Assembly: GCA_027063305.1 (NCBI GenBank)
Contig: JAMORY010000032.1
Coordinates: 1-64,000, forward strand
DNA length: 64,000 nucleotides
Source of the DNA: Sulfurovum sp.
GTDB taxonomy: Bacteria > Campylobacterota > Campylobacteria > Campylobacterales > Sulfurovaceae
Reading direction: 5' to 3'
Within the stretch, counting starts at the first letter, position 1; every line of letters begins with the position of its first letter. Below the pieces are notes generated by a model. The model had not been told where the DNA came from. It was given only the letters and a program-made list of their open reading frames with translations, and made no database searches. The position numbers and the translations under genes were made by a program. This document shows positions 29,506 through 47,777 of the stretch, in pieces.

Positions 29506-29533
29506 ATGGCGGACAGTGAGGGATTCGAACCCT
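29506..29533. repeat. Left attachment site (attL) of the element
   Basis: These 28 bases, starting ATGGCGGACAGTGAGGG, are identical to the 3' part of tRNA-Ser at the right end, including the encoded CCA. The identity stops at ACCCT on the right and before ATGG on the left. Confidence 0.95.
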
Positions 29534-30012
29534 ACTGTAAAATCACTATAGCCCTTATTTACGGGATTTAAATAAAAATAAGTTAGCTGTTGGCACACTA
29601 AAAACTAACTTTTTTGGCAGACTCTGCCAAACTATTCATCTACTTTCTATATTTACCTATCCATTTTATTCATTAATAGTTACAAAGATGGGGATTCGAA
29701 CCCCTCGGATGGCTAGCAAGGGAACAGCTCTAACCTCCGTAATATAGGGCTTTGTTAGGGTTAATTGTATCTAAAAAAATATAAATGTCAGTAGATAATG
29801 GGCGTTACTTACTGACAATTTGGCTGACATCTATTGGCCATAATAAATACCCCTATTTAGATTTAATTAAGGTCTATCATGTTAATGTTCTGTTGAATTT
29901 AGTACCTATCGGTACCTGAATGAATCGAGTGTTTCGGTTACTGAACCAGTGTAACAAATCAGTAATCAGTCTTACTTTTTTCTCCTATCTCTTCAATCTT
30001 TTAAATATAGGC
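29534..30012. other. Left-end region with palindromes, an arm-type site and a tRNA-like fragment
   Basis: There is no gene in this 480-base stretch. It holds GTTAGCTGTTGGC at 29582-29594, whose exact inverse lies before the integrase gene. AAGTTAG/CTAACTT followed by T-rich sequence (about 29580-29613) is a likely terminator. Two perfect palindromes follow: TTTGGCAG-ACT-CTGCCAAA at 29613-29631 and TGTCAGTA/TACTGACA at 29786-29817. Between them, on the minus strand, is a tRNA-like piece (about 29679-29758). Such dense repeats fit integrase and excisionase binding. Confidence 0.6.
29679..29758 (-). pseudogene. tRNA-like fragment
   Basis: On the minus strand ACAAAG pairs with CTTTGT as an acceptor stem at a tRNA-sized distance, and GGGG-TTCGAAT-CCCC forms a T arm. 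GGTTAGAGC resembles the 3' half of a D arm. The anticodon arm does not fold well and the D stem is not complete, so this is probably a decayed tRNA gene carried by or captured at the element's left end. Confidence 0.45.
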
Positions 30013-30018
30013 TATAAT
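30013..30018 (+). promoter_or_regulatory. Minus-10 box of the 50-residue basic protein gene
   Basis: A perfect TATAAT lies 26 bases before the ATG at 30045. No strong -35 box is obvious. It would drive the coupled gene pair downstream. Confidence 0.5.
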
Positions 30019-30044
30019 TATACAAATCTGGATAGGGGTATTTT

Positions 30045-30197
30045 ATGAAAAAACATAGTTTTGCCAGGGCAAAAAGCTATAGATGCAAAACAAGGTCTAT
30101 GCAACGCTACATAAAATATCTTAAACGATTGAGATCTAAACGTGCAAGAAAAAATATAGATCAATGGCGTAAAACTAATGCTTGGGATGTTGCATGA
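30045..30197 (+). CDS. Small, strongly basic protein of 50 residues
   Basis: The frame from ATG at 30045 reads MKKHSFARAKSYRCKTRSMQ and ends KRARKNIDQWRKTNAWDVA. About a third of the residues are Lys or Arg, so it is likely to bind nucleic acid. It has its own TATAAT box, and its TGA overlaps the ATG of the next gene as ATGA, so the two are translated together. I do not recognise the family. It could be a regulator, an antitoxin or a small accessory protein of the next gene. Confidence 0.65.
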   Translation: MKKHSFARAKSYRCKTRSMQRYIKYLKRLRSKRARKNIDQWRKTNAWDVA

Positions 30198-30724
30198 AAC
30201 AATTATTTGAATTTGAAGAAAATAAAACATTTTTCGGTCTTGATGTCTATACACCTGGTGTAAAGCTTAGAGATATTGAGAAGTTACCTTTTGCTCAATT
30301 TTTTAAAGACTCTCATGTAGGCTCAACTATGGCTTTTATTAATGGTGAAAATTATATTTATCTGCATGATTGGGAAAGGTTTTGTAAAAGCTTTATTCAG
30401 CATGGCAAACATCGATATCAAGGACAAGTACCAGAAAGAAAAATGCCAATTAACATATATTCAATAACTAAATATGGTGAGCTTAGATTTAAGAGAACTA
30501 TTGATGCTCAAGACTATACATATTCTAACAGCTCGGGAAGTATGGATATTGAGATTAGGCACACAAAAAATGGAAAGATATTGCAGCTATATACAAAAGA
30601 ATTTTACCAAATGGGCATTGATGAATATTCCAACAATGAAGAAATCATGAAAAGAGTTTATTCATCAAATTATATCAACATTGATGACTGGTGGAAACTG
30701 TACAATAATTTAGATAGACGATAA
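30194..30724 (+). CDS. Unknown 176-residue cargo protein
   Basis: Starting at the ATG that overlaps the previous stop codon, the protein begins MKQLFEFEENKTFFGLDVY. It is rich in aromatic and charged residues and has no signal peptide or membrane segment. It ends NINIDDWWKLYNNLDRR. No known motif is evident. Its coupling to the 50-residue basic protein at the element's left edge is typical of accessory cargo, but I cannot name a function. Confidence 0.65.
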   Translation: MKQLFEFEENKTFFGLDVYTPGVKLRDIEKLPFAQFFKDSHVGSTMAFINGENYIYLHDWERFCKSFIQHGKHRYQGQVPERKMPINIYSITKYGELRFKRTIDAQDYTYSNSSGSMDIEIRHTKNGKILQLYTKEFYQMGIDEYSNNEEIMKRVYSSNYINIDDWWKLYNNLDRR

Positions 30725-30760
30725 AAGATTCTTAAAAATATGTCAAATTGCCATATTTTC

Positions 30761-30789
30761 TTAACACTTAGGAAATGTTAGGATATAAT
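30761..30789 (+). promoter_or_regulatory. Promoter of the restriction-modification operon
   Basis: TTAACA at 30761-30766 and TATAAT at 30784-30789 have a 17-base spacing. The methyltransferase ATG follows 27 bases later after an AGAGGAAG ribosome site. Confidence 0.7.
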
Positions 30790-30816
30790 TAACAATCACA
30801 AAGAGGAAGCCCAGTT

Positions 30817-32244
30817 ATGACAATCCACCTTACAGATCAATCACATACTAATTTACTAAAGACAATTGAGTATAAAGCATCTGTTTATGCAAAAACAACT
30901 TCTTCAAATCAAAAAAAAGAGCTAGGACAGTTTTTTACCGATTACCGCATAGCTGCTTATATGGCTAATCTTTTCTCATTCAAGCTACCAAAAACCAAGA
31001 CCATAGAGATCCTTGATTGTGGAGCAGGTCATGGGATCCTATCAATCTCTCTACTAAACATACTCATTCAAAAGGGTTATACTAAATTTGATCTTACTCT
31101 CTACGAGATTGATCCTGGTGTTTTACAAGATCTTCATCAAAATCTATTATCCTACAAAAAAGAGCATCCCAATATTACATTGAATTACAGAGTAATAGAG
31201 AAAAACTTTATATTGGATCCAGTCGAAAGAAAGTTTGATCTTATCATCTCTAATCCCCCTTACTTCAAATTAAAAAAAGAGTCACTAGAAGCAAAAGCAA
31301 TGGCACATCTTATACATGGGCAACCAAATATCTATATGTTCTTTATGGCTAAAAGTGCTGATCTGCTTAAAGAGACTGGGGAAATGGTATTTATTACTCC
31401 TCGGAGCTTTACCTCTGGAGCTTATTTCAAACGATTTAGAGAGTATCTCCTTGATGCAGTATCATTAGATCATATACACATTTTCAACACCAGAAGAGAA
31501 CACTTTAAAAATGAAAGTATTCTCCAGGAAACGATCATCACAAAGTTTTCAAAACAAAATACTCAAAATATTACTATTACCTCTAGTGAAGATAGTACCT
31601 TTAGCTATATAGAAGAACTCTCCACTACCAAAGATCTTATTGTGGAAAAATACCGTAATATTATTTGTATCCCATCATCTACAGATGATTTAGAAATATT
31701 AGATCTGTTTCATGCTGCACCTCATACATTACAAGATCTTGGATACAAAATCTCTACAGGGAAAGTAGTCACCTTTAGAAATAAAGAACTACTTTCTACT
31801 GCCCCTAAAAGTCTTTTTGATGAAGCAAAAGAATTTTGCCCATTACTCTGGATGCACAATTTTAAAAATGATAATCTCCTCTTTCCTCTGGATCATAAAA
31901 AAGAGCAATATATAGAGTTTTCAGATAGATCCAAGGCATTACTTATCCCTACACAAAACTACCTGCTTATTAAGCGTTTTAGCTCCAAAGAACAGCATCG
32001 CAGAATAAACATAGGATACCTTTACAAAAAAGATTTACTAAGTACCTATGTTGGCTTGGAAAATCACTTAAATTATCTTTATAGAAAAGATAGAGAATTA
32101 ACAAAAAAAGAGATGAAAAAACTTGGATCCTTTTTGATCTCTGCAGAAGTAGATCAATATTTTAGAATACTAAACGGAAATACTCAGGTAAACGCAGCAG
32201 ATATACTTAACCTGCCTGTACCGCCAGAACTATACAAAGGATAG
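30817..32244 (+). CDS. Type II adenine-N6 DNA methyltransferase (PstI/BsuBI type)
   Basis: A 475-residue DNA methyltransferase that protects host sites. It has the approach motif LGQFFT, SAM-binding motif I DCGAGHG at 67-73, and catalytic motif NPPY at 146-149, the mark of N6-adenine enzymes of the gamma class. The C-terminal half would be the target-recognition domain. It is followed after two bases by a BsuBI/PstI-type endonuclease gene, so the likely target is CTGCAG. That specificity is inferred from the partner's family. A CTGCAG site occurs inside this gene itself at 32140-32145. Confidence 0.9.
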   Translation: MTIHLTDQSHTNLLKTIEYKASVYAKTTSSNQKKELGQFFTDYRIAAYMANLFSFKLPKTKTIEILDCGAGHGILSISLLNILIQKGYTKFDLTLYEIDPGVLQDLHQNLLSYKKEHPNITLNYRVIEKNFILDPVERKFDLIISNPPYFKLKKESLEAKAMAHLIHGQPNIYMFFMAKSADLLKETGEMVFITPRSFTSGAYFKRFREYLLDAVSLDHIHIFNTRREHFKNESILQETIITKFSKQNTQNITITSSEDSTFSYIEELSTTKDLIVEKYRNIICIPSSTDDLEILDLFHAAPHTLQDLGYKISTGKVVTFRNKELLSTAPKSLFDEAKEFCPLLWMHNFKNDNLLFPLDHKKEQYIEFSDRSKALLIPTQNYLLIKRFSSKEQHRRINIGYLYKKDLLSTYVGLENHLNYLYRKDRELTKKEMKKLGSFLISAEVDQYFRILNGNTQVNAADILNLPVPPELYKG

Positions 32245-32246
32245 AA

Positions 32247-33191
32247 GTGTCGAGACTTAATGAAGCCAAGCAACTCTTAGCTGATCTTGGAGTACCAGAT
32301 CAATACAATAGTGATTTAATGCGATATGCTTTTTTAGCCCTTTTAGATATAGGAGATAGTTCTTCCTGGGGTGAGGCAACAAATGAAAAGCTTATGAGAC
32401 TTCATGACATTTTTGGCTATATTCAAAACACTTTTGATAAAACTTATGCAGAGAACTCTAGAGAAACCCTCCGTAAAAGAGTAGTTAAGGTCTTTGAACA
32501 GGCTCATATTGCTTTACGAAATATTGATGATCCAAGCAGACCTACTAACAGTGGTAAAACAAACTATTCTATATCCGATGAAGCCTTAACGGTTATTCAA
32601 AGCTATGGTACTCCAGACTATGAGGTTCAACTAGAAGAGTTCAAAAATAATTTTGTAACTCTCTCTGAACAATACGCCAAAAAAAGAGATTTGCATAAGA
32701 TCCCTTTGGTGATTGATGGAAAAGAGTTTGTGCTTTCTTCTGGATCCCACAATCAACTACAAGTTGATATTATCAACGAGTTCGCTCCTCGATTTGCTCA
32801 TGGTGCAAAACTACTCTATATTGGTGATACAGCAGATAAATACATCTATGTAGATACAGAAACTTTGGAATCTATTGGTATCCCTATATCGGAAGATGAT
32901 AAGCTACAATTGCCAGATGTAGTGCTATATGATGCTGAAAAAAATTGGTTATATTTGGTGGAAGCCGTTACTACACATGGACCAATAGATCAAAAACGCA
33001 TCAATGACCTTGAAATTATGTTCCAAGACTGCCCTGCTTATAAAATCTATGTTACTGCATTTCCAGATAGAGCTACCTTTAGAAAATATGCTGTTGATAT
33101 AGCATGGGAAACCGAAGTATGGCTCTCTGTTGATCCAGATCATATGATCCATTTTAATGGAGATAAGTTTATGGGTCCGTACAAAAACTAA
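32247..33191 (+). CDS. BsuBI/PstI-family restriction endonuclease
   Basis: A 314-residue type II restriction enzyme starting at GTG 32247, two bases after the methyltransferase stop. The family's C-terminal catalytic half is clear: LSSGSHNQLQVDIINEFAPRF, LLYIGDTADKYIY, LPDVVLYDAEKNWLYLVEAV and TTHGPI. The D...E-x-V arrangement in LPDVVL...LVEAV carries the metal site. Enzymes of this family cut CTGCAG. The linear order methyltransferase then endonuclease and the shared transcript help protect the cell. It converges on the three-gene operon at 33251. Confidence 0.92.
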   Translation: MSRLNEAKQLLADLGVPDQYNSDLMRYAFLALLDIGDSSSWGEATNEKLMRLHDIFGYIQNTFDKTYAENSRETLRKRVVKVFEQAHIALRNIDDPSRPTNSGKTNYSISDEALTVIQSYGTPDYEVQLEEFKNNFVTLSEQYAKKRDLHKIPLVIDGKEFVLSSGSHNQLQVDIINEFAPRFAHGAKLLYIGDTADKYIYVDTETLESIGIPISEDDKLQLPDVVLYDAEKNWLYLVEAVTTHGPIDQKRINDLEIMFQDCPAYKIYVTAFPDRATFRKYAVDIAWETEVWLSVDPDHMIHFNGDKFMGPYKN

Positions 33192-33250
33192 TTAAAAGGT
33201 ATAGGGATAAAAGGGTAATCCTTTACTTTGCAAATCTTTTAAAATGTCTC

Positions 33251-33937
33251 TTATGATTGTATTGTTTTTTTTATAGACCCTTTTATAATTGGCAATAAAA
33301 GTTTTAAGTTATTCTTATTAGTTTTTAGGCTTCCATTATGTGAAAGTTCAAAAACTGATTTCACATTATCTAATTCAAAACTACACTTGATTTTATTAAT
33401 TGTATATTTCTTTTTATCTAAGAAAATATCTATATCTTCTGATACATCAGACTGACTATTTTTCGCTGTCAGTTTAACGTCTGTATTTTCTGAAATATGT
33501 ATATCTTTACATTCAATACCATGTATTGAAAAATTATTAAATCTAGGTCTTAATAATTGAATTAGTTTCGATAAATCTAAACTCAATGGTTTAATGGCAA
33601 TATTAAATTTTGACATCGATGCAAAGCTGTTTAAAATATTTTGAACACCTCTTGGAGGATTAATCAGCTCTATCCCTAGTTGATTATTTTCAAGATTAAA
33701 TAATGTTTTTTCATAAATAACTCTTTGGTATATGGTAGCCTCATTCGTCAGAGGGTTTTCAATAGTTTCTTCTATTTCTTTCTTTGATATATATGATCCC
33801 TCCAAAATATCATCTCTTCGTTTGTGTGCAGTAAATCCATAATATTTTTCTTCTGTATAGACATCTGAAATTATGGCATCAACAACAGTATTATATTTTG
33901 AATTCCAAGCAACATCAAACCATCTAATTCTATACAT
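33251..33937 (-). CDS. Unknown protein, third gene of the three-gene cargo operon
   Basis: A 228-residue protein beginning MYRIRWFDVAWNSKYNTVVDA, with no signal peptide or membrane helix. It has a mixed alpha/beta pattern and a lysine-rich end (KKTIQS). I recognise no domain. It lies only four bases after the previous gene, so all three are surely one transcript. A role alongside the nuclease-like first gene, for instance as a sensor or inhibitor, is a guess from context. Confidence 0.6.
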   Translation of the reverse strand: MYRIRWFDVAWNSKYNTVVDAIISDVYTEEKYYGFTAHKRRDDILEGSYISKKEIEETIENPLTNEATIYQRVIYEKTLFNLENNQLGIELINPPRGVQNILNSFASMSKFNIAIKPLSLDLSKLIQLLRPRFNNFSIHGIECKDIHISENTDVKLTAKNSQSDVSEDIDIFLDKKKYTINKIKCSFELDNVKSVFELSHNGSLKTNKNNLKLLLPIIKGSIKKTIQS

Positions 33938-33941
33938 AAAC

Positions 33942-34994
33942 CTACTCCTCTTGTGATTTTATGTCATTGAAAACCTTAAATGCCGATGTTTCTAGAACTT
34001 TAGTATATTTTTCAGATTCTTCAGGTGTTAGAGGTCTCCTAGTTGTTGTATATTTATCTTTTTCCACAAAGCGATATGCACCTTTAGCGGCAAAGATAAC
34101 TTCTTCGGATTTAGATCCTGAAGATAAGCCCGCTTCAAATTCAATATGATTCCCATTTTTTTTCAATTCTTCTGACTTCCAGATAATTGAAGTAATAAAA
34201 TAACCATCATCTTTAAGTTTTTGGTATTCAGGGGTAGATAACAATCCTTTACCTTTAAAAGATGCATTCGTAATCATATTCAAAACATCCTCTTCTGCTT
34301 CTGGGTTATCTTCGTGATTAACACTAACCTTAATTACATCGAACATTTTACATTCATCAATACTATCTATGAGAGTGGTAAAATATTCAATTTTTTGACT
34401 ATGATTCCAGCCCTGTAGATCTATTTTATCTTCATTTATTTTTTCAGAAGTTTTTTGTTCTATCCCACTTAAAATACTTTCCATGATTTGATCTACTTTA
34501 TCATTCGATGGCTTGCTAATTATGCTTTCCCCTTTATTTTTAGTAATTTCAATTGTACTTTTTTTTCTAATTTTTTGACGTAATCTAGTCTTAGAAAAAT
34601 CTAGCTCATCATACTCTACTTCAAGAACAGTTTTATTAGGATTATCTGGTTTTGTTGTTACTTGTATTGTCGTGTTTCCATCGTTAATATTTTTAGTAAT
34701 AGCTTTTAATTGACTATCATCAATTTCCGTGTTAATTTTTGTAACCTTTGATTTCTCTTTTTTATGTGCAGGTGTTATATGTTCAATCAAAACATTTAGA
34801 TCATAATAATCATAAACCAATGAAGACAAATACCTAATAATGTCTTCTCTCGAATCTTCCGAGGAGAGCAGAATACCTTTATCACGAGCCAATTCTAATA
34901 GTAATGATATCGTCATAGTTCTTTTTGATGACATCAAGGCATCATATATATCTTTTTCTGTGAAGTAAATTCTAGATTCAGTTTGTGCTTTCAT
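33942..34994 (-). CDS. Unknown protein, second gene of the three-gene cargo operon
   Basis: A 350-residue protein. The N-terminal 65 residues (FTEKDIYDALMSSKRTMTIS, then LLLELARDKGILLSSEDSRE and a helix) look like a small helical domain of SAP or winged-helix size. A long lysine- and threonine-rich linker follows (about 75-165). The C-terminal 150 residues form a separate alpha/beta domain including GKGLLSTPEYQKLKDDGYFI and FEAGLSSGSKSEEVIFAAKGAYRF. The ATG directly follows the TAA of the nuclease-like gene with no gap. No family is recognised. Confidence 0.6.
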   Translation of the reverse strand: MKAQTESRIYFTEKDIYDALMSSKRTMTISLLLELARDKGILLSSEDSREDIIRYLSSLVYDYYDLNVLIEHITPAHKKEKSKVTKINTEIDDSQLKAITKNINDGNTTIQVTTKPDNPNKTVLEVEYDELDFSKTRLRQKIRKKSTIEITKNKGESIISKPSNDKVDQIMESILSGIEQKTSEKINEDKIDLQGWNHSQKIEYFTTLIDSIDECKMFDVIKVSVNHEDNPEAEEDVLNMITNASFKGKGLLSTPEYQKLKDDGYFITSIIWKSEELKKNGNHIEFEAGLSSGSKSEEVIFAAKGAYRFVEKDKYTTTRRPLTPEESEKYTKVLETSAFKVFNDIKSQEE

Positions 34995-35981
34995 TTATTC
35001 CATCCCTATCTCAATTTCGCTAAAATCCTTAACGATATTTGTTATTGATTCACATTTAATATTATTAAGCTTTTCGACAACTCCATCATGTTCATCAAAC
35101 TGTGTTTTATACTCATCCACTGCACTACTAAAATTTGATATTGCATATTTATCTGCATTTGCAATTCTTACAATGATTTTAGATGCATGTGAAATGAGTT
35201 GATAATGAAATAAATAATCTATAAGATATTGGAATTCTTCCTGACTTTCACCTTTTTTACTATAAAAAACAATAATTCCAAAATCATTGCTATTTTCATC
35301 ACTAGGATTAGTTTTAAATTTAATGATTTGCCATGTTGCAAATAGCATTTCAATTGTGGCAGATGAGTTCCAGGGATTTCTTGTAGGTTTTCGATCTAGT
35401 GTAGGGTAATAGAATGTATAGTTTGACTTATTGGGCAATATATCATCTCCACGAAGCACCTTAATATCATTAACAATAGTGATTAAATACTGTATTCGTT
35501 TTGGGGAGAAAACAAATATCTTGTTACTCATAGAGAGAGGGATCTCCCGTTTCGTAGCCTCATATAATGTTTGCTCAAAATCTTTATCAAAACTGTTATC
35601 ATGATTATAAACAAACAAAGCACTTATAATATCTGTATTCATAGCCTTAGACTGGTAGTTTTTTTGCCACTCTTCACTAAGTTGTGTACATTCACTTGCC
35701 ATTGCCAATGACTCTAAGGCTGTACGTATGCTTGTAGGTTTGATACTGCCTTTTGCATAACTTTTTAAATCAAAATTAATATTTATGTATTTTTGTTCAT
35801 AAGGATCTTCATATCTAAAAACAATATCACTAGGATGTGTAGTTTTTTTATGTTTCTCCTGTTGTACACATGCCCAGTTAGTATCCATTGGTCCTACATT
35901 TTCCCAGAAAAATTCTGAAAATATTTCTTTTGAAACTTTTTCCGCCATGATCGCTATATTACTTGTTTCTGCCAAATTCAT
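34995..35981 (-). CDS. PD-(D/E)xK nuclease-like protein, first gene of the three-gene cargo operon
   Basis: A 328-residue protein. Near the N-terminus are Glu14 in a helix (AEKVSKEIFSEFF), Asp52 in HPSDIVFRYED and Asp71-Leu-Lys73 in ININFDLKSY. A helix Glu, a beta-turn Asp and a D-x-K strand is the layout of PD-(D/E)xK nucleases such as restriction enzymes. The following helix SIRTALESLAMASEC fits too. The remaining 230 residues are unrecognised. Adjacent restriction-modification genes and its place in mobile cargo suggest a defence role, which is inferred. Confidence 0.6.
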   Translation of the reverse strand: MNLAETSNIAIMAEKVSKEIFSEFFWENVGPMDTNWACVQQEKHKKTTHPSDIVFRYEDPYEQKYININFDLKSYAKGSIKPTSIRTALESLAMASECTQLSEEWQKNYQSKAMNTDIISALFVYNHDNSFDKDFEQTLYEATKREIPLSMSNKIFVFSPKRIQYLITIVNDIKVLRGDDILPNKSNYTFYYPTLDRKPTRNPWNSSATIEMLFATWQIIKFKTNPSDENSNDFGIIVFYSKKGESQEEFQYLIDYLFHYQLISHASKIIVRIANADKYAISNFSSAVDEYKTQFDEHDGVVEKLNNIKCESITNIVKDFSEIEIGME

Positions 35982-36223
35982 CCCCTTATAAATTTATAAC
36001 ATTATCGTTGAGTCACCCAAAGGTGCGAATAAGTTTCAGGACGTTTAGATCATTGTAAAATTTATTTTACGAGGCTATAAACCCATCCTGCCTTTCTATT
36101 CAACTTCTAATTTATTCGATTTGTTTCGATTATATCGAAAAATAGCTTTTCCAACTCATCTTTAATAAAAATAGAAAACTATTTTAAACTATGTTATACT
36201 AATGAAAACTTTTGGAGAGATGT
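35982..36223. promoter_or_regulatory. Divergent intergenic region with a palindromic operator and an IS5-like end remnant
   Basis: This spacer separates the three-gene operon from the traK-like gene. It holds a perfect palindrome, TTTCGAT-TAT-ATCGAAA at 36124-36140, a likely repressor site. A TATACT box at about 36195-36200 and a TTGGAGAG ribosome site precede the traK-like ATG at 36224. The segment AAAGGTGCGAATAAG near 36018-36033 resembles an IS5 terminal repeat, but no transposase is present. Confidence 0.5.
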
Positions 36224-36631
36224 ATGGCAAAAAGTAGAAAATATGAAGATCGACTCCCAATTGGTGAAGCGATAAGAGAGTTTTACTCTGCACTTGATAC
36301 GATTGAGGAGTATTACACCAAAAAAGGGTACCGAAAAATGACTATGCTGCATAGAGTTCTCAAAGAGAAATTGAACTGGAAAATGCCCTACGATACTTTT
36401 AGGTATCACTTCAATAAAGAGTTTGGATCTAAAAGACAATCACCCTTAAAAGAGGATATGCCAAATAAGCCCATAGAGCAATTTTCTACCCAAGAGGAAC
36501 TCTCCATAGCCCCAAGCTCTCCAACGGCTAAAAAGCCATCTTCTGGACCTATTATCTTGGATCCTACAAGCAATAGTAAAAAAGTGGTGTATCAAGGAAG
36601 TACCAAAAATATTAAGAGGGATGAAATTTAG
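36224..36631 (+). CDS. TraK-like relaxosome accessory protein
   Basis: From the ATG at 36224 (GGAGAG ribosome site six bases before) this is 135 residues: MAKSRKYEDRLPIGEAIREFY, then VLKEKLNWKMPYDTFRYHFNKEFG and a Ser/Pro-rich tail. TraK of IncP plasmids binds oriT and has a similar short N-terminal domain with a YxTFxxYVN-type segment. The match is weak but supported by TraL and TraM homologues further along. A 13-bp stem hairpin with possible oriT character follows its stop at once. Confidence 0.5.
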   Translation: MAKSRKYEDRLPIGEAIREFYSALDTIEEYYTKKGYRKMTMLHRVLKEKLNWKMPYDTFRYHFNKEFGSKRQSPLKEDMPNKPIEQFSTQEELSIAPSSPTAKKPSSGPIILDPTSNSKKVVYQGSTKNIKRDEI

Positions 36632-36639
36632 TAAATAAC

Positions 36640-36687
36640 GATAAAAGAGGATATATAGCCTATATCCTCTTTTAAGGGTTATATGTG
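36640..36687. repeat. Hairpin repeat, copy 1 (possible oriT or terminator)
   Basis: AAAAGAGGATATA pairs with TATATCCTCTTTT around a five-base loop. About 48 bases here recur, with about 90 per cent identity, at 44353-44401 before the mobilisation genes. The right arm contains TATCCT, close to the IncP-type nic core. Confidence 0.7.
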
Positions 36688-36746
36688 GTGTAAAGTACGG
36701 CAATATATGGAAAATGCCAAAGGCAAATACCACATATTGCTACAGG

Positions 36747-36866
36747 CTACTTTGTCTCTGTAAGTTTGCCATACAGATAAAGCACAGGTGCGGCGATAAT
36801 GAGACCTACACACGCCCACCATGAGAGTCCAGATCCTCTTAGCTGTTTGTAGTAATTTATAATCAT
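36747..36866 (-). CDS. Small single-pass membrane protein of 39 residues
   Basis: The frame from ATG at 36866 reads MIINYYKQLRGSGLSWWACV and continues GLIIAAPVLYLYGKLTETK. It has one clear membrane helix with a basic N-terminal side. A strong GGAGGAAC ribosome site precedes it, 11 bases after the EexN-like gene stop, so the two are one transcript. It is too short for most gene finders. Its partner suggests a role at the envelope. Confidence 0.65.
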   Translation of the reverse strand: MIINYYKQLRGSGLSWWACVGLIIAAPVLYLYGKLTETK

Positions 36867-36877
36867 TGTAGTTCCTC

Positions 36878-37672
36878 CTATTTCATAGGCTGACTAAGCC
36901 CAAATACACCAAAGTTTCTAGCTGCTGCCATTGCGGTACGACATTTGAAGCTTTGCGTAAGTGCATTAGCTTCGTTCCACTTCATTTTTTTCTGATATGC
37001 TGCAACTTTTGTCGAACACTCATTAAACACTTTTTTAAGAGCCTCTTTGTCTCCAGACAGTCTTTTAATAGTGTCTTGCTCATCTTTTGCAGTTGCTCCC
37101 ATTGCTAAGTCACAATCTGCACTCTGAAATCCTTTTTCTTTGCAAGTTTTTTCCCTATAGGCTATAAGATCATCGCCCTGGTGTTGAGAGATAAGATCTA
37201 CCATTGCCTGATCTTTTCTTTTTAGTCTAAGCTCCTGGTACACTTTACATTTAGCGGAGACTCTACCAATAGCCAAGCCACATGAGTCTTTGATTTTGTA
37301 AAATTCTGCGTAAGGCATTTTCTTCTGGAGTTCCAGTTGTTCTTTGTAGTCTATTTCATATTGAGCATCTGCCTTAGCTTTCTCTTCAGCTCTTTTTTTC
37401 TGTTCTACTGCATATTTGGCTTTTTGTGCTGCTCTGCGGTGTTCAAAGTAAGATTTTTTAGCAGCTTTACACTCTGGATCTTTATCATACTTCTCTGCTA
37501 GTGCCATATCTCCTTTTCCAAGAGCGACAGCTACAGCCTTATCACAAAGTTTAAATTTTGATTGTGCTTCTTCTGGGTGTTTATCATAATAGGCTTTGTC
37601 ATGGTCGAAAAAACCTGCATTAGCAGAGATCGCCATAATTGACAATCCAAATAGTATAGATCTTAGTTTCAT
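36878..37672 (-). CDS. Exported EexN-like protein, possible entry exclusion factor
   Basis: The protein has 264 residues and a signal peptide (MKLRSILFGLSIMAISANA). Right after cleavage comes FDHDKAYYDKHPEEAQSKFKLCDKAV, then DPECKAAKKSY. The pattern of Tyr-Tyr, His-Pro-Glu-Glu, a Cys and a second Cys about 25 residues on is that of EexN-type exclusion proteins of conjugative plasmids. A long charged coiled-coil region and several further paired cysteines follow, which is larger than a usual EexN. It could block entry of a second related element. Confidence 0.55.
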   Translation of the reverse strand: MKLRSILFGLSIMAISANAGFFDHDKAYYDKHPEEAQSKFKLCDKAVAVALGKGDMALAEKYDKDPECKAAKKSYFEHRRAAQKAKYAVEQKKRAEEKAKADAQYEIDYKEQLELQKKMPYAEFYKIKDSCGLAIGRVSAKCKVYQELRLKRKDQAMVDLISQHQGDDLIAYREKTCKEKGFQSADCDLAMGATAKDEQDTIKRLSGDKEALKKVFNECSTKVAAYQKKMKWNEANALTQSFKCRTAMAAARNFGVFGLSQPMK

Positions 37673-37729
37673 TCTTCTTCCTTGTTCTAAAATTAAGTTA
37701 AGATTATATCTTAAGAGTTATGAAATTTT

Positions 37730-38305
37730 TCACTCTGCTTTTTGATATGATATTGCTGCTTTAGCAAATACATAATCGGGATGATCTTCTTCAAAGTTAT
37801 TTACCAACCATACAAGGTATTCATTTGGAAGATCTTTCCACATAGTACCTTTATATTTTCCGTAATTTATTCTTTTTTCAATATCAATTTGAGAAGAGCT
37901 ATTTCTTCTTTTTAATTCAGTATGTGCCATATACCAGTTATGATTTTCTTCTGTAGTTAACAACCATTGTAAATAATTTGTAGGTACTTCTTCCCATTTC
38001 TTACCTTGGTGCAAACCAAAGGAAACCCTTTGCTGGCAAAGTAAATCTTCTGTACGCTGAGAAACAGGGAAAGTAAATTCCACAGTAAACTCCAAAAGTT
38101 CTAATACCTGTCTTGCAGTATCTTGACTCCATTTTTTTCGTACAGACATCTGTGCCGCATCCTGACTAAAAAATCCTTGTCTACTATATGCAAAGTCCTT
38201 TAATTTTTCTATTGTCAAAGGATTAAGATTATTAAGGTTATGTATATAAAAAACAGTTTCATACTCTTTTGGCTCAACAGATAATTGAATTATTTCATCC
38301 ATCAT
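37730..38305 (-). CDS. Protein with two DUF3820-type repeats
   Basis: A 191-residue protein. The last 110 residues hold two copies of a motif: SFGLHQGKKWEEVPTNYLQW and NYGKYKGTMWKDLPNEYLVW, each followed by a helix. This GKYKG...W.DLP..YL.WL pattern is the DUF3820 motif, also seen at the C-terminus of some exonucleases. The first 80 residues are helical and may bind DNA (KKWSQDTARQVLELLEF). The function is unknown. It stops 14 bases before the next gene's coding end on the same strand, so it is co-transcribed with the upstream regulator. Confidence 0.6.
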   Translation of the reverse strand: MMDEIIQLSVEPKEYETVFYIHNLNNLNPLTIEKLKDFAYSRQGFFSQDAAQMSVRKKWSQDTARQVLELLEFTVEFTFPVSQRTEDLLCQQRVSFGLHQGKKWEEVPTNYLQWLLTTEENHNWYMAHTELKRRNSSSQIDIEKRINYGKYKGTMWKDLPNEYLVWLVNNFEEDHPDYVFAKAAISYQKAE

Positions 38306-38319
38306 ATGACTTCTTTTAA

Positions 38320-39087
38320 TTAAACTTTTTCTTGCAACCTAGCTACAAATTCTGGAATGTAAAATTCATTATTAAGATGTCCATTCCAGTCTATAATAGC
38401 ATCACTATTGTCTAAAATATATTGATCCTTTATTTCTATATATTTTTTTAAAGTTTTTTTTATGTCTTTTCCCTTGAAAGAGAAACTACTCATGAGTTTA
38501 TATACATATTCTGTCTTTTCTTCATATGTAGGTAACAAATTAGTTTTATATAATATAGAATAAAATGAAAACTTGATAGCTATTTCAAATTTTATAACAT
38601 CACTATCCTTAAGTGCAATATCTCGAACTAAAGTTTCCCAATCATCTATTGTGTTTTTTAGAATATACTCTTCAAGATCAGAAGTCATATTCATAATAGG
38701 CTTCTGAAAACTATCTCTTTTAAATTTTTCTAAATCATGAGATTTAACTGTAAATTCTTGTCCAAAGACATTATTGGTTTCCATTAGATAATAAATCAAT
38801 GTACTCTCAATATCTGTATTATTTTTTCTATGTAATAACTCATGATGATTTGTAATGTTTTGCCGAAAATAATTTAAAAATCTAAAATAAAAATCAATAT
38901 AAAATGTATTTTCCATAAAAAAATTATTATTAACATAACTTTTAAATAGATCAAAAAAATCTTTATATAAAACTTCTTTATCTATTCCTATTCTTATCAA
39001 TCGATAAAGCTCTGGTTTACTCTTCTTCCAATTTGTAATTGTATTCTGATTAACCCTAATCAATTTTGCTAAATCTTTATCTGTCAT
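38320..39087 (-). CDS. HTH regulator of the element
   Basis: A 255-residue protein with an N-terminal helix-turn-helix like phage repressors (DKDLAKLIRVNQNTITNWKK, then KPELYRLI). The rest is a long helical domain rich in Asn, Phe and Lys with no known motif. It is transcribed away from the excisionase-like and replication genes across a spacer carrying two similar dyads. It is most likely the repressor controlling excision and replication. That role is inferred from position. Confidence 0.65.
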   Translation of the reverse strand: MTDKDLAKLIRVNQNTITNWKKSKPELYRLIRIGIDKEVLYKDFFDLFKSYVNNNFFMENTFYIDFYFRFLNYFRQNITNHHELLHRKNNTDIESTLIYYLMETNNVFGQEFTVKSHDLEKFKRDSFQKPIMNMTSDLEEYILKNTIDDWETLVRDIALKDSDVIKFEIAIKFSFYSILYKTNLLPTYEEKTEYVYKLMSSFSFKGKDIKKTLKKYIEIKDQYILDNSDAIIDWNGHLNNEFYIPEFVARLQEKV

Positions 39088-39127
39088 CTAAATACCTCCT
39101 CTTATTTAAGAAATTATACCAAGAAGT

Positions 39128-39236
39128 ATTAAATATTATGATGTTTTTATAAAAAGTCACAATATTTAATATATATTTAAAGCTTATCAGGATAATATTA
39201 TCTAAATATTTATGATTATTTTTAAAAAGTCATAAA
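39128..39236. promoter_or_regulatory. Two related dyad operators between the regulator and the excisionase-like gene
   Basis: Site one (39128-39170) is bounded by ATTAAATATT and AATATTTAAT, a perfect 10-bp inverted repeat. Site two (39209-39236) is bounded by TTTATGA and TCATAAA. Both enclose the same core plan, ATGAT followed by TTTTT, a short A/T pair and AAAAAGTCA. Two matching dyads in a divergent spacer fit a lambda-like repressor switch. Confidence 0.65.
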
Positions 39237-39260
39237 TAAAATGATTTTATGAGGTGCATA

Positions 39261-39461
39261 ATGAATAACTGGATAACTCCAAAAGAAGTAGCAAATGGCA
39301 TTAAAGATTTACCACCAATACCTATCAATACACAAAATATTGCTAGATCTAAACGTCAATTACAATACTTGAAAATAGGTAATAGAGTTTATTACACATA
39401 TCAAGATTTAAAAAATTTTGTTGAAGCCAATATCAGAAAAGCTCAACCAAAGGCTGACTAA
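39261..39461 (+). CDS. Excisionase-like small HTH protein
   Basis: Sixty-six residues from the ATG at 39261, with a GAGGTG ribosome site eight bases before. MNNWITPKEVANGIKDLP, then RQLQYLKIGNRVYYTYQDLK NFVEANIRK is the plan of MerR-like winged-helix excisionases and helper proteins. Its stop overlaps the start of the replication gene. It might direct excision or repress the adjacent operon. Confidence 0.6.
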   Translation: MNNWITPKEVANGIKDLPPIPINTQNIARSKRQLQYLKIGNRVYYTYQDLKNFVEANIRKAQPKAD

Positions 39462-40303
39462 TGGCACTGATTAAACATTTTCCACACTATCTTAATGCAC
39501 GTAACGACAGAAAAATAAAAAAAGGAAGGTTACAGCTTGGCATAGAATTTGTTGGTATCTACTGGATGACATTAGAGGTGTTGGCAGAGCAAAAAGATTT
39601 TAAATATCCACTTGCAGACCTAGACATCTTAGCAGATGATTTTGGCACATCAATTCAAAAAGTACAACTTGTAATTACTCAATATGGATTATTTGAAATT
39701 GATCCTAATGAATAGTTCTTTTCTCCTGCACAAATCAAAGGACTAGAGCCATATCTTGAAAAACTTGAACATTACCGCCTAATGGGTATAAAAAGTGGAT
39801 TGGCACGAAAAAAGAAAACGCAAGAGCAAATAGAGAAGCTTAAAAAGTTGAGTCAGGGTGACTCAAATGAACTAGAGTTAAACGTAGGTTCAACATACGC
39901 TGAACAATTAACTAATACTACTAATAAACTAATTAATAAATCTAATAAACATACACACACAATAGATGAGTGGTTAGATGAATATTGTTTAGGCAAAACC
40001 CCTGCTTATAGAGCTTACATGATGAAACAAATCAATGAGCAGGATCCTATAGCTATCAAAACTTACAATGATTGGTACCAACAGCAAATTGAACAAGATC
40101 TCAAAGACGAGGAACAAAAAAAGATAGATACCTTTGACTACAACTTACTTGTAGGGCTATCACTTGGAGAAAAAACTATAAAACAAATTGTAGACGCAGG
40201 TAGTACCATCCACCTATTTTTTGACGATGGTACAGATGATTATAGTCAATCAAAAAAATCTTTATACGACTGGTACCAATTAAAACTGGAGGAAACAGCA
40301 TGA
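39461..40303 (+). pseudogene. Replisome-organiser-like gene interrupted by one in-frame TAG
   Basis: The first part (84 residues) begins MALIKHFPHYLNARNDRKIK and has the DUF4373 / Lin1244-like domain of phage and plasmid replication proteins, ending YGLFEIDPNE at TAG 39713-39715. The same frame continues without another stop: FFSPAQIKGLEPYLEKLEHY and MGIKSGLARKKKTQEQIEKL, which is the expected next part of the domain. Only the single TAG separates them. The whole frame would be 280 codons. The product is probably lost, unless the TAG is read through or is a sequencing error. Confidence 0.75.
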
Positions 40304-40572
40304 CAACACTACAAACATTTCTAATTGATTACTGCCAAGATAACTGGACTGTGGCAGCTTACTGGTTAAATATGGATCAAAATACTCTATCAGATCTGTT
40401 GGGAGCAGAACATGACTCAATGATCGATAATGATCTTATCCAAAGAGCCAAAGAACTTATGGATAGAGACATACCAAACAATGAGGTGGCAGCACTTGAA
40501 ATGGCATTTGAGGATCTACGGATCCGTATGGGGCGTTTTCAAAGTGCAGCTTATGAATTAATCAATAACTAA
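40300..40572 (+). CDS. Unknown 90-residue protein
   Basis: Starts at an ATG overlapping the preceding TGA (ATGA). The sequence MTTLQTFLIDYCQDNWTVAA, LNMDQNTLSDLLGAEHDSMI and an acidic helical tail shows no recognised domain. It is all helix by eye. It lies 15 bases before the TraL gene and may be co-transcribed with it. Confidence 0.55.
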   Translation: MTTLQTFLIDYCQDNWTVAAYWLNMDQNTLSDLLGAEHDSMIDNDLIQRAKELMDRDIPNNEVAALEMAFEDLRIRMGRFQSAAYELINN

Positions 40573-40587
40573 AAAGGAATAGACCAC

Positions 40588-41376
40588 ATGGCAAAAGAAA
40601 AAACAACCAAAAAACCAATAGTACATTTTGTGATGCAGGGTAAAGGAGGAGTGGGTAAAAGCAGAGTAGCGGCAACTCTCTTGGAGTTTCTCACAGAGAG
40701 GAATAATGGCAATGCTCTTGGACTGGATACCGATCCAAATAATAGATCACTTTCTGACATCAAAAGTTTAGATGTGGTGTTTCTAAATATCATGCCTGAC
40801 TCTGATACCGTGGATATAGCCAAGTTTGATGATCTGCTTATGTTTATGATGCAAAACGAAAGGGCAAAAGGTAAAGATCTTGTAATAGATGTGGGGGCTA
40901 CAACTTATCAGCCGCTCTATAGCTACCTTATCAAGAATGATGTATTTAACCTGCTCTCTGACTTTGAGCATTTTGTTCATATTCCTATAGCGATTGGAGC
41001 AGAGGCAGAGGCAGATTGTCTCTTGCAACTTGACAGTATGCTAAATGCTTTTGGAGACACCCCTACCTACATAGTCTGGGAAAATCAGTTTTTCTCTGCA
41101 AATGCAAAATCAGATCATGACATCGAAAAACTGAAAGCCTACCAAAAAAATAAAGAGAAGATCTTTGCTGTAATAAAAATGACTAAGAGAGATGTACTCT
41201 TTGAAAGTGCATTAGAGAAGATGACCAAAAACAAACAGATCTTTGCAGATGTGAATATGGATCCAGAATACAACATCTTAGAAAAATCCAGACTCCACAA
41301 AATAAAAACAGATTACTGGCAGATGCTCGATATCGTCATTCCAACTCAATCTGACAAAAAGGAGGAAGCTAAGTGA
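40588..41376 (+). CDS. TraL-like ParA-type ATPase of a P-type transfer system
   Basis: A 262-residue protein with a deviant Walker A motif, QGKGGVGKSR at 17-26, directly after IVHFVM. This is the opening of IncP TraL (a ParA/MinD-like ATPase). An acidic strand VIDVGATTYQP follows. Its stop overlaps the start of the TraM-like gene by four bases. In IncP plasmids traK, traL and traM are consecutive; here about 4 kb of other genes separates the traK-like gene from traL. Confidence 0.8.
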   Translation: MAKEKTTKKPIVHFVMQGKGGVGKSRVAATLLEFLTERNNGNALGLDTDPNNRSLSDIKSLDVVFLNIMPDSDTVDIAKFDDLLMFMMQNERAKGKDLVIDVGATTYQPLYSYLIKNDVFNLLSDFEHFVHIPIAIGAEAEADCLLQLDSMLNAFGDTPTYIVWENQFFSANAKSDHDIEKLKAYQKNKEKIFAVIKMTKRDVLFESALEKMTKNKQIFADVNMDPEYNILEKSRLHKIKTDYWQMLDIVIPTQSDKKEEAK

Positions 41377-41774
41377 ACGATGAAGAACTAAACCTCTTGC
41401 TGGAGGAGGTAAGGAAAAGAGGGTTAAGTATCTCGGAGAAAGATCCTGTCCTCTCGGTATTGGTTGGATATGACCTCTTATTTAGAACACATATCAAAAA
41501 TACAGATTTACTATTGCAGCAACACAAAGTAGATATGACATCTATTGGAGAGGAAAATTATCAAAAGATCCGATTATTAGCTATTGAGAAAATCTCTACT
41601 GGGCTTGACCAGGCACTAGACAAAATGGATACCTATACATTGAAAAAAATATCAGAAATCAATGATGTAGCACATGATGCTAAGCCTAAGCAGGAGATTC
41701 CAATTTTTTACTGGGTTTTTACACTCATGGCGGCTGCTTTAGGCTATATGCTCTGCCTATCGATTATAGGCTAA
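41373..41774 (+). CDS. TraM-like transfer protein
   Basis: A 133-residue protein: helical N-terminus (LLLEEVRKRGLSISEKDPVL), a middle helix and one C-terminal membrane segment (IFYWVFTLMAAALGYMLCLS). Size, topology and position directly after TraL match TraM of IncP-type systems, a membrane-linked protein of the relaxosome region. The overlap with TraL suggests translational coupling. Confidence 0.65.
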   Translation: MNDEELNLLLEEVRKRGLSISEKDPVLSVLVGYDLLFRTHIKNTDLLLQQHKVDMTSIGEENYQKIRLLAIEKISTGLDQALDKMDTYTLKKISEINDVAHDAKPKQEIPIFYWVFTLMAAALGYMLCLSIIG

Positions 41775-41799
41775 TCCCAATTCAACACAAAGGAAAAAC

Positions 41800-42588
41800 A
41801 TGAAAAAAATTACAATCTCAACAATTTTGGCAGCGGCAATTATGACAACTTCAGTTAATGCAGGATCCGTTGGAGGATTTGGTGGATCCTTAGAGAGCAC
41901 ACAATGGCTAAGATTTGGTGCAGAAACAGCAGATAGAGCCAATGCCTATACCAAGCAGCTACAACAGTATGCTATGCAGATCCAACAGTATCAACAGCAG
42001 GTACAGCAGTATGTCAATCAATTTAACTCTTATAAGATGATGCTCCAAAATATAGGACAACTACCACAGCAGCAATGGGATCAATTCTCTCAATCGGTCA
42101 TAGGGCTCAAACAGTCTTTAGACTTTGGGAAATCTTTAAATTTCACAGCCAGTAGCTATGATGCAGACTTTAAAAAAATGTTTCCAGGCTTTGATAAGTA
42201 TCTATCTGATGCAAAAAACGGAAACAGCTTTGAGCAGGAATACAAGGATCTCTCCGCTTCAACTAACGATACGGTAAATTCTGCTCTAAAATCTTTAGGG
42301 TTAAGAGCGAACGATCTACAGAATGATGAGGCAGTTATGAGACAGCTACAAACGCTTAGCTCCTCTGCTTCAGGACAAAAGGCGGCTATACAGGCAGCAA
42401 ATGAAATCGCTCTCCATCAAACGCATCAACTGAAAAAACTAGAGCAGACAGTTATACAACAAACAAGAGTCCAGAGTCAATGGATCTTAGATCAGCAGAA
42501 AAAAGAAGAGATGAAACAAGCAGCCAAAGAAGCCTATCTATCTGATTATGAAAAGCCAAGCAACACAGATGATAGACCAATGCCATAA
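41800..42588 (+). CDS. trbJ: TrbJ-like conjugative transfer protein
   Basis: A 262-residue exported protein with signal peptide (KKITISTILAAAIMTTSVNAG). It has a Gln-rich coiled coil (YAMQIQQYQQQVQQYVNQF) and the conserved C-terminal region RQLQTLSSSASGQKAAIQAA, NEIALHQTHQLKKL. This is TrbJ/VirB5-like of P-type systems, which helps build or tip the pilus. A TrbK-like lipoprotein follows. The last 25 bases including the next ribosome site recur at the end of that gene. Confidence 0.85.
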   Translation: MKKITISTILAAAIMTTSVNAGSVGGFGGSLESTQWLRFGAETADRANAYTKQLQQYAMQIQQYQQQVQQYVNQFNSYKMMLQNIGQLPQQQWDQFSQSVIGLKQSLDFGKSLNFTASSYDADFKKMFPGFDKYLSDAKNGNSFEQEYKDLSASTNDTVNSALKSLGLRANDLQNDEAVMRQLQTLSSSASGQKAAIQAANEIALHQTHQLKKLEQTVIQQTRVQSQWILDQQKKEEMKQAAKEAYLSDYEKPSNTDDRPMP

Positions 42589-42600
42589 GGAGACGGAACG

Positions 42601-42756
42601 ATGAAACAAACTATTCAAATCATTTTAGCAGCAGCTATTTTATTGAGTTTACAAGCGTGTAGCGACAAAAAGAATGACTATGACTTCAATGTGGATACAA
42701 CTGATCCTCAATCACCCTATTACATCAACCATGATGATGATAGACCAATGCCATAA
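42601..42756 (+). CDS. TrbK-like small lipoprotein
   Basis: Fifty-one residues from ATG at 42601: MKQTIQIILAAAILLSLQAC with a lipobox ending at Cys20, then SDKKNDYDFNVDTTDPQSPY and NHDDDRPMP. TrbK, between TrbJ and TrbL in IncP, is a small lipoprotein for entry exclusion; the position and size match, the sequence is not informative. The final DDRPMP and the following AAGGAG are a copy of the end of trbJ. Confidence 0.65.
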   Translation: MKQTIQIILAAAILLSLQACSDKKNDYDFNVDTTDPQSPYYINHDDDRPMP

Positions 42757-42768
42757 GGAGGATGCGTA

Positions 42769-42990
42769 ATGCCTACAAAAGATCAAGCAAAAATAATTAA
42801 GAACTATATAGAAGTATTTTTTGCAGCCTTTTTGATTGTCTCTTCTCTGTCATTCCTCGTATGGAATCAAGGTAATCATTTTAGCAATAGTGGAGCCATT
42901 GCATTTTTTATCGCAGGGGTGCTTATCATTATCAAGGCAAACTGGGAGTACAAACAGCGTAAACATCAAGAGCAGGAGCCAGAAGAATGA
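42769..42990 (+). CDS. Small two-pass membrane protein
   Basis: A 73-residue protein with two membrane segments (IEVFFAAFLIVSSLSFLVW and GAIAFFIAGVLIIIKANW) and a basic, then acidic tail. Its TGA overlaps the ATG of trbL. No family is recognised; its place in the trb cluster suggests a membrane role in transfer. Confidence 0.6.
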   Translation: MPTKDQAKIIKNYIEVFFAAFLIVSSLSFLVWNQGNHFSNSGAIAFFIAGVLIIIKANWEYKQRKHQEQEPEE

Positions 42991-44348
42991 AAAAATTATT
43001 CTTGATACTTCTTGGTGTCATACTGTTATCTGATTTTATCTTTGCATCAGGTAATAATATAGGATCGGATGTAGTTTTAAACTATTCGATCCATACATCA
43101 AAATGGTATCCAGTATTTAAACAAGCTTCACAGTTTATATTCTGGGCATTAGCAGTTATTGAACTCATTTGGATCTTCTCAATAAAGGCAATTGAAGGGA
43201 GTTTAGAGTTATCTGGAATTTTTGCCCAGTTAATAAGACTAACTTTTCTTTAGGGTGTTTGGAATGTCTTTTTCGCACATCCTGAATTTTTTGATACTCT
43301 CATTGGAAAAATGACTTCTACTGGCTTAAAAGGTAGCAGTTTTTCCATATTAGCAGATAGAGCCAATGCCGCAGCAGGTGTCTCTACGGTTATATCGGTA
43401 GATCACTTAACAGATAGTGCCTATCTCATTCTTGGGACTATTGGAGAGAATCAATCTTTTTGGCATCCTGTAGATTCTATCATTTTAGGACTCATTGGAC
43501 TAATGGCTGCCGGTGGTGTTCTATTTTTAGCTCTTCGCCTAGTTGCAACATATGTGAAGTTTCTTATCACTGTTTATGCATCGGTACTCTTCTTCGCCTT
43601 TGGTGCTATGCAAACGACACGACATATAGCGGTCAATGCCATATTCGCCATGCTAAGAGCAGGTACAGAATATATGCTAATCAAACTTATTATAGGGCTT
43701 TCTATAGCTAATATTATATCTTATGTGCCAAAAGCCATGATGAGCTATGGATCCCTTGTAGCCTTACTCATTATGGTACTTCTCATTGGAGCATTAGCCC
43801 AAATGGTGCACGGTCTTGTAGAGGGGTGGTTTAGTGGCATGGGAGCCCAAACAAGCGATCATGCAGCATCAGTACTCAAAGGAGCAGCAGCAGGAGCAGC
43901 GGTTGGGGCAGCGGTTGGGGCAGCAGGTGGAGCAGCGGCAGGACTTTCAAGCGTTAAAGCCGCAGCCGCAGCCGCAGAAACAAAAAACTCAATGGAAAGT
44001 GTTAAATCTGCTACTGGTGCAGGTAGCAGTACAGCAGAACAAAACGGTAAAGGCACACAAAAGACAGGTAACTTTAAAAAGACTAAAGCATCTGCTACGG
44101 TAGCATCATCCGCAGCAGCAGGAGCTCTTAGCGGTGCAGTAAAAGGCTTGACAGGTTTCTCCACACATGGAGCAGGACGAAAAAGCGGTGCGGCAGTTGC
44201 ATCTATGCTAACTGGTACGCCAAATAAGGATCAAGAGAAAAAAGGCTCTGGCGATAATGACTCTGAAAAGGTAGAGGGATCTATAGCCTCTGCTAAGTCA
44301 AAATATGTCTCTGGAGTACCTGGATCTGGAGGCAATGATGATGTCTGA
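42987..44348 (+). pseudogene. trbL: TrbL/VirB6-like channel protein interrupted by one in-frame TAG
   Basis: The first 88 residues (MKKLFLILLGVILLSDFIFA to ELSGIFAQLIRLTFL) are the TrbL N-terminus: signal, then a membrane segment FWALAVIELIWIFSI. TAG follows at 43251-43253. The frame continues without a break as GVWNVFFAHPEFFDTLIGKM and the polytopic core with six or so membrane helices, then an Ala/Gly-rich tail. TrbL forms the inner-membrane channel of P-type transfer. A downstream ATG at 43311 could restart translation, but without the first helix. Intact length would be 453 codons. Confidence 0.8.
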
Positions 44349-44352
44349 TAAT

Positions 44353-44401
44353 GATAAAAGAGGATATGTAAGCCTATATCCTCTTTTAAGAGTTATGTGT
44401 G
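44353..44401. repeat. Hairpin repeat, copy 2 (candidate oriT upstream of mobilisation genes)
   Basis: AAAAGAGGATAT pairs with ATATCCTCTTTT. The 49 bases match copy 1 at 36640-36687 at about nine of ten positions. It ends ten bases before the accessory protein gene and before the relaxase. TATCCT resembles the IncP-type nic core. It may also end the trb transcript. Confidence 0.65.
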
Positions 44402-44410
44402 AGGTTTATC

Positions 44411-44791
44411 ATGGCTAGACCACGAAAAGCAGAGGAAGATAAAAGAGCTTATCGTACTACCGTATGGGCTAGTAGAGAGGAACATTTGATTATGCAAACA
44501 AGAGCTAGAGCTACTGGACTATCACTTAGCACCTACCTCCGTAATCTTGGATGTTCATATCCTATCAAAAGCAGAGCCGATCAATATCTACTCTCTTTGT
44601 TGGTATCTGCCAAAAATGAATTAGGCAGACAAGGAGGTCTTTTAAAATTGTACCTCTCTAAAACAGATAGAAAAGAGAATTTAGGAAGTAAGACTCCAGA
44701 GGATATTGATTACATTTTGGAGAGTATAGAGCAGAAACAAAATCATCTGATTTCTATAGCAGAGCAGGTGCTAAGGGAAATGAAAAAATGA
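44411..44791 (+). CDS. MobC/TraJ-like relaxosome accessory protein
   Basis: From ATG at 44411 this is 126 residues: MARPRKAEEDKRAYRTTVWA, SREEHLIMQTRARATGLSLS, TYLRNLGCSYPI. A strand-helix-helix of this kind with a T-L-S-x-Y/F-L-R segment is the ribbon-helix-helix of MobC and TraJ proteins, which bind oriT and recruit the relaxase. The TGA overlaps the relaxase ATG. An upstream GTG at 44399 is less likely as a start. Confidence 0.8.
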   Translation: MARPRKAEEDKRAYRTTVWASREEHLIMQTRARATGLSLSTYLRNLGCSYPIKSRADQYLLSLLVSAKNELGRQGGLLKLYLSKTDRKENLGSKTPEDIDYILESIEQKQNHLISIAEQVLREMKK

Positions 44792-46422: not shown

Positions 46423-46655
46423 TGCTACTAGATAGAATAGATCAAAAACTCGATGAAATATTACAGATCCACAGAAGCCTACCTACATGGATACCTTTAT
46501 CACAACAGTATGCAGAAGAGTGTGGCTATAAAACTATAGATGGTTTGCGTAAATGGTGCTATAACAACCTGCCTCCAGAGCTATTTGAAAAACATGGAAA
46601 AAACTGGTTTATCCATGTATCAGCTCTTCATTTGGTAAAGAGAAAGGTAGTATAA
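46422..46655 (+). CDS. Small HTH-like protein before the integrase
   Basis: A 77-residue protein: a short coiled N-terminus (LLDRIDQKLDEILQIHRSLP), then WIPLSQQYAEECGYKTIDGL, RKWCYNNLPPELFEKHGKNW and FIHVSALHLVKRK. The pattern of a helix-turn-helix followed by a wing resembles excisionase or AlpA-like proteins. It overlaps the relaxase stop and its TAA lies within the integrase TATAAT box. It is a candidate recombination directionality factor. Confidence 0.6.
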   Translation: MLLDRIDQKLDEILQIHRSLPTWIPLSQQYAEECGYKTIDGLRKWCYNNLPPELFEKHGKNWFIHVSALHLVKRKVV

Positions 46656-46675
46656 TGTGTACGCCAACAGCTAAC
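46651..46675 (+). promoter_or_regulatory. Integrase minus-10 box with an overlapping arm-type site
   Basis: TATAAT at 46651-46656 precedes the integrase start. At 46663-46675, near the expected transcription start, lies GCCAACAGCTAAC, the exact inverse of 29582-29594 at the left end. Binding there could repress the integrase. Confidence 0.6.
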
Positions 46676-46689
46676 GAAAGGAAACTAAG

Positions 46690-47748: not shown

Positions 47749-47777
47749 TCTTAAAATCCGTGTTTTAGGGGATTGTT

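Follow-up and report, generated by a model that had tools for sequence, protein, structure and literature searches.

The 64,000-nucleotide window of Sulfurovum sp. DNA analyzed here contains three abutting minus-strand ORFs with 0- and 4-base spacing, and it raises the question of what the three proteins are and how they might act together. The initial annotation described them as an anti-phage-type operon encoding proteins of 328, 350 and 228 residues, and this layout agrees with the ORF coordinates. Values of dN/dS between 0.05 and 0.20 for each of the three genes, obtained against three relatives at 52-98% amino-acid identity, indicate that the trio is protein-coding and under purifying selection. 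A search of the operon's surroundings gave no terminator-like site. Each product matches a PADLOC profile over most of the profile's length:

34995-35981, minus strand: Hp1, 328 aa (PADLOC PDLC03004 Hp1, E = 2.8e-62; AlphaFold2 pLDDT 94.9; VIA neighbors)
33942-34994, minus strand: Hp2, 350 aa (PADLOC PDLC03005 Hp2, E = 1.5e-25; weak N-terminal profile matches)
33251-33937, minus strand: Hp3, 228 aa, predicted RdgC-like fold without the tip domain (PADLOC PDLC03006 Hp3, E = 1.4e-8; AlphaFold2 pLDDT 96.3; Foldseek; VIA)

In a P2-like prophage of E. coli, a trio flanked by the phage portal and DinI genes matches the same three models from end to end (792, 820 and 520 bits), suggesting that this locus, or a closely similar one, is what the PADLOC models represent, and a Vibrio phage record carries a homologous trio annotated as Rst_3HP__Hp1, Hp2 and Hp3. 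Rousset 2022 reported that a three-gene system of the P2 hotspot, lacking any clear domain, confers protection against phage P1 (PMC9122126), and DefenseFinder lists Rst_3HP as mostly prophage-borne (PMC9090908). The P2-hotspot position and the Rst_3HP naming suggest that the protective system of Rousset 2022 is of this trio type. Judged by homology, the Sulfurovum trio is a divergent member of the known Rst_3HP anti-phage system. It resembles the system of Rousset 2022 in having three genes in the same order, near-full-length homology and a location on a mobile element, but it is distant from the E. coli type (Hp1 36-38% identical, Hp3 about 19% identical) and resides on an integrative element of a Campylobacterales genome, whereas E. 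coli Rst_3HP resides on a P2 prophage. The match of all three proteins to 3HP supports the earlier reading of an anti-phage-type operon. The same matches, with the Vibrio phage annotation, show that the set, which the annotation did not recognize as a named defense system, does have a name; homology of all three to a known defense system, which the annotation had itself listed as evidence against an unknown system, is what we found.

A search for the same gene trio elsewhere, which had been proposed as a check, recovered it widely. Profile scans returned 80 genomic and 80 viral-contig loci. The trio is complete in 165 of 174 loci, and the nine incomplete ones are consistent with contig ends or fragments. 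Gene order is Hp1-Hp2-Hp3 in every scored locus (151/151), and neighboring genes overlap by a median of 4 bases at either junction, ORF starts having been assigned mechanically. Carriers in the genomic profile scan include Pseudomonadota, Verrucomicrobiota, Desulfobacterota-type bacteria and one cyanobacterium, and Pf filamentous phages and plasmids also carry the trio. Closer to home it is sparse: apart from the genome's own copy, one of the 60 relatives searched has it, and among 397 genomes sampled from the phylum 2 carry it, the Sulfurovum genome included. In phages and plasmids, neither Hp2 nor Hp3 was found without Hp1 and paired with another effector; every Hp2 or Hp3 record had Hp1. 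A viral-contig scan with the single Hp1 protein gave zero matches, whereas the alignment-based scan did find loci. On a haloarchaeal (Halobacterium) plasmid, profiles made from bacteria only found all three genes (E = 7e-23, 3e-16 and 3e-16), here permuted to Hp3-Hp1-Hp2 (L012:5298-8261); PADLOC gave no detection of this trio. The divergent Campylobacterales and haloarchaeal members widen the family well beyond the P2 prophages of its first description. Two loci are distinctive in other respects: a viral contig has about 1.3 kb between Hp2 and Hp3, possibly an insertion in the operon (L137:9050-12079), and on an Aliarcobacter plasmid the trio adjoins an AAA ATPase/HNH pair matching PADLOC PDC-M01A/B and Septu PtuA (L002:4634-7418).

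The initial annotation placed the Sulfurovum trio in the cargo of a mobile element beside PstI-like genes, and both placements hold. The features that define its surroundings are as follows:

29506-29533, no strand: left 28-bp direct repeat, putative att site
30817-32244, plus strand: Type II N6-adenine DNA methyltransferase of a BsuBI/PstI-type restriction-modification (RM) pair, which travels with the trio
32247-33191, plus strand: BsuBI/PstI-type restriction endonuclease (Pfam PF06616, E = 1.2e-60)
46690-47748, plus strand: tyrosine-recombinase-like integrase, assigned from its sequence and its position beside the tRNA-Ser gene (47779-47869)
47778-47805, no strand: right 28-bp direct repeat, putative att site, overlapping the tRNA-Ser gene

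The flanking repeats, the integrase and the tRNA-Ser gene together mark the trio as cargo of an ~18.3-kb integrative element (29506-47805), which also encodes relaxase-like, secretion-like and ParA-like genes, as judged from sequence. The G+C content of the trio (29.6%) is below that of the flanking chromosome (45-48%), which fits horizontal gain. PADLOC and Pfam matches identify the adjoining genes as a BsuBI/PstI-type RM pair, and in a Lamellibrachia-associated epsilonproteobacterium (L015) a related element carries the RM pair and the trio together as a single block (91% nucleotide identity). Elsewhere in the element, a 180-aa ORF that immediately precedes the methyltransferase gene (30182-30724 for the ORF) had no significant match in PADLOC or Pfam, and the protein encoded at 37730-38305 contains QSregVF_b-type repeats (Pfam PF12843, E = 5e-11) and is also similar to the C-terminal end of certain DNA polymerase III epsilon homologues. 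As element cargo, the trio might simply serve to maintain the mobile element or to process DNA, without a defense role in this host, and a nuclease together with an RdgC-like protein would suit recombination too. We regard this as very improbable: homologues occupy the P2 defense hotspot and Pf phages, the three-gene P2-hotspot system was reported to be protective (PMC9122126), the trio's neighbors are an RM pair here and Septu/PDC-M01-like genes in Aliarcobacter, and its distribution in the phylum is sparse.

The first gene had been singled out as PD-(D/E)xK nuclease-like, and the predicted structure agrees. In the AlphaFold2 model of Hp1, made from 79 sequences, residues 1-150 adopt the PD-(D/E)xK core of a helix, a three-strand meander, a helix and a strand, with elements at H3-23, E48-58, E65-75, H82-99 and E116-126. 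Foldseek against the PDB gave no match at E <= 0.001, its top matches being chance-like; the PD-(D/E)xK set emerged upon VIA re-alignment, in which the neighbors of Hp1 are mostly enzymes of this class, led by HamA (Z 8.9), XisH (8.4) and FokI (7.9) and including NucS, Can2, Card1, SduA and NucC. Because the individual Z scores are middling, the weight of the assignment falls on the mutual agreement of these neighbors and on the invariant residues. Pro50, Asp52, Asp71 and Lys73 are invariant in 79 of 79 diverse homologues, and the candidate active-site codons lie at these positions:

35967-35969, minus strand: Glu5, conserved acid of helix 1 (78/78, with one gap)
35826-35828, minus strand: Asp52, motif I (HPxD), invariant in the homologue alignment
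35763-35771, minus strand: Asp71-Leu72-Lys73, (D/E)xK motif, with Asp71 and Lys73 invariant

Of the residues proposed from the sequence at the outset, Asp52 and Asp71-x-Lys73 therefore stand, whereas Glu14 does not, as it is Glu in just 31 of 79 homologues and the invariant acid of helix 1 is Glu5. The Halobacterium homologue has Glu-x-Lys at the (D/E)xK position, and NCBI has independently given the E. coli Hp1 the product name PD-(D/E)XK nuclease domain-containing protein. We confidently predict that the N-terminal domain (about residues 1-150) is a PD-(D/E)xK nuclease. For residues 164-315, the VIA matches included the N-terminal domain of RPB5 (Z 8.8) and a segment of Avs3 (Z 5.7). SCOP places the RPB5 N-terminal domain in the restriction-endonuclease-like fold, suggesting that the RPB5-jaw-like C-terminal domain of Hp1 (about 155-328) is probably a second, inactive copy of a nuclease-like fold; no sequence repeat between the two halves was detectable.

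The third gene product provides the more unexpected structural link. The AlphaFold2 model of Hp3, made from 92 sequences, has E. coli RdgC as its best Foldseek match in the PDB (E = 1.1e-6, probability 1.00), and VIA aligned the two over 214 of 228 residues (Z 11.3, 5.7 A). The next VIA neighbors are Iml3 (9.6), CENP-L (8.6), CENP-N (7.5) and lambda RexA (5.4), phage RdgC proteins in the BFVD viral structure library match Hp3, and depositors of Pf-phage GenBank records independently labeled Hp3 "RdgC-like exonuclease." By sequence, the similarity of Hp3 to RdgC is marginal and not significant, with profile comparisons not above shuffles, and Hp3 matched no Pfam family at all, the RdgC family PF04381 included. 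At 228 aa, compared with about 303 aa for RdgC, Hp3 also differs in being encoded with a nuclease and in lacking the two-helix tip domain that RdgC has between strands 4 and 5; in the model, strands 44-60 and 67-83 are joined there by just a short turn (61-66), with no inserted helices. Given the missing tip helices and the absence of significant sequence similarity, we call Hp3 RdgC-like in fold rather than RdgC; the model predicts that it has the full-length RdgC fold, in common with E. coli RdgC (PDB 2OWL, 2OWY) and with lambda RexA, Iml3/CENP-L and Chl4/CENP-N.

What is known of this fold suggests how Hp3 could act. RdgC assembles into DNA-binding ring dimers, its tip domain helping ring closure, and it inhibits RecA; DNA binding by RdgC homologues is non-specific; the heterodimer of Iml3 and Chl4, which contacts DNA, has the RdgC fold, and RexA is a relative (PMC11077077). 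RexA, like 3HP, is associated with phage exclusion and is itself a DNA-binding protein, but it works with RexB, and Iml3-Chl4 is a centromere heterodimer, neither having a known nuclease partner. Moreover, DNA binding by RexA does not correlate with phage exclusion (PMC11077077), and a clamp role for Hp3 in defense therefore does not follow from the shared fold by itself. The inhibition of RecA by RdgC (PMC11077077) would also fit a recombination-interference or anti-plasmid/anti-MGE module that is not specific to phages, in which the RdgC-like part would block RecA-type strand exchange or circularization and Hp1 would degrade the stalled DNA. The carriage of 3HP by phages, plasmids and an integrative element is in keeping with such a module. 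As a prophage, P1 lives as a circular plasmid. It is also the sole reported target (PMC9122126). We nevertheless consider this reading rather improbable, since Hp3 lacks the tip domain that aids ring closure in RdgC and no plasmid-interference data were found in the literature searched.

Hp2 is the least well defined of the three proteins. Its N-terminus has weak profile similarity to Ashwin/DUF4518, and this segment is possibly a small SAP/HeH-like helical motif. Profile comparison gave no support for Hp2 as RdgC-like by sequence, nor for Hp2 as a possible paralogue of Hp3 or RdgC, the comparisons not rising above block shuffles. Searches of solved-structure sequences with Hp1, Hp2 and Hp3 profiles returned nothing relevant, and neither Hp2 nor Hp3 matched a helicase in PADLOC, Pfam or NCBIfam. 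The constant placement of Hp2 next to Hp3 suggests that the two are partners.

We propose, with moderate confidence, that 3HP is an anti-phage system, here borne on an integrative element, that combines an RdgC-like DNA clamp, formed by Hp3 and probably Hp2, with Hp1 as its nuclease effector. The clamp would engage invading phage DNA or its recombination or replication intermediates and would recruit or license Hp1, a metal-dependent PD-(D/E)xK DNA nuclease acting through Glu5, Asp52, Asp71 and Lys73, to cut. What the analysis itself shows is family membership, the conserved trio, the predicted nuclease fold of Hp1 with its invariant site and the predicted RdgC-like fold of Hp3. That DNA would be the substrate, that Hp2 would pair with Hp3, that the nuclease would be licensed and that the Sulfurovum copy would defend against phages are steps we infer. 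Among the closest known systems is Hachiman, whose HamA nuclease is the top structural neighbor of Hp1 and which, as proposed here for 3HP, pairs a nuclease with a DNA-engaging partner; the partner in Hachiman is the HamB helicase, whereas the 3HP trio has no helicase match and one of its partners is RdgC-like instead. We found no published 3HP mechanism in the open-access literature searched. The main rival to the clamp model is abortive degradation of all DNA, in which Hp1 would be released once Hp2-Hp3 sensed a DNA structure induced by the phage, and would then degrade host and phage DNA indiscriminately, killing the cell. Several structural neighbors of Hp1 are indeed suicide or signal-activated nucleases (NucC, Can2, Card1), and the non-specific DNA binding of RdgC homologues would afford little discrimination of self from non-self (PMC11077077). 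Against abortive infection, which we judge unlikely, none of the three proteins matches a known signal-sensing domain, and toxicity data for 3HP were not found.

Returning to the clamp model, we speculate that Hp2 and Hp3 could pair as an RdgC-like heterodimer, the prokaryotic equivalent of Iml3-Chl4 (CENP-L-CENP-N), and that this clamp would close around foreign DNA and license the tandem PD-(D/E)xK nuclease. Discrimination would then depend on the topology or recombination state of the DNA and not on its sequence or modification. This extension is tentative and, taken as a whole, doubtful; if true, 3HP would represent a distinct mechanistic class of defense. The nuclease and RdgC-like assignments are a useful lead, partly already present in GenBank product names. 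With a nuclease fold assigned to Hp1 and the RdgC/RexA/Iml3 fold to Hp3, what had been three "hypothetical proteins" becomes a model of a nuclease plus a DNA clamp that can be tested, and Hp3, with its predicted fold, would provide a second link between the RdgC fold and phage exclusion, after lambda RexA.
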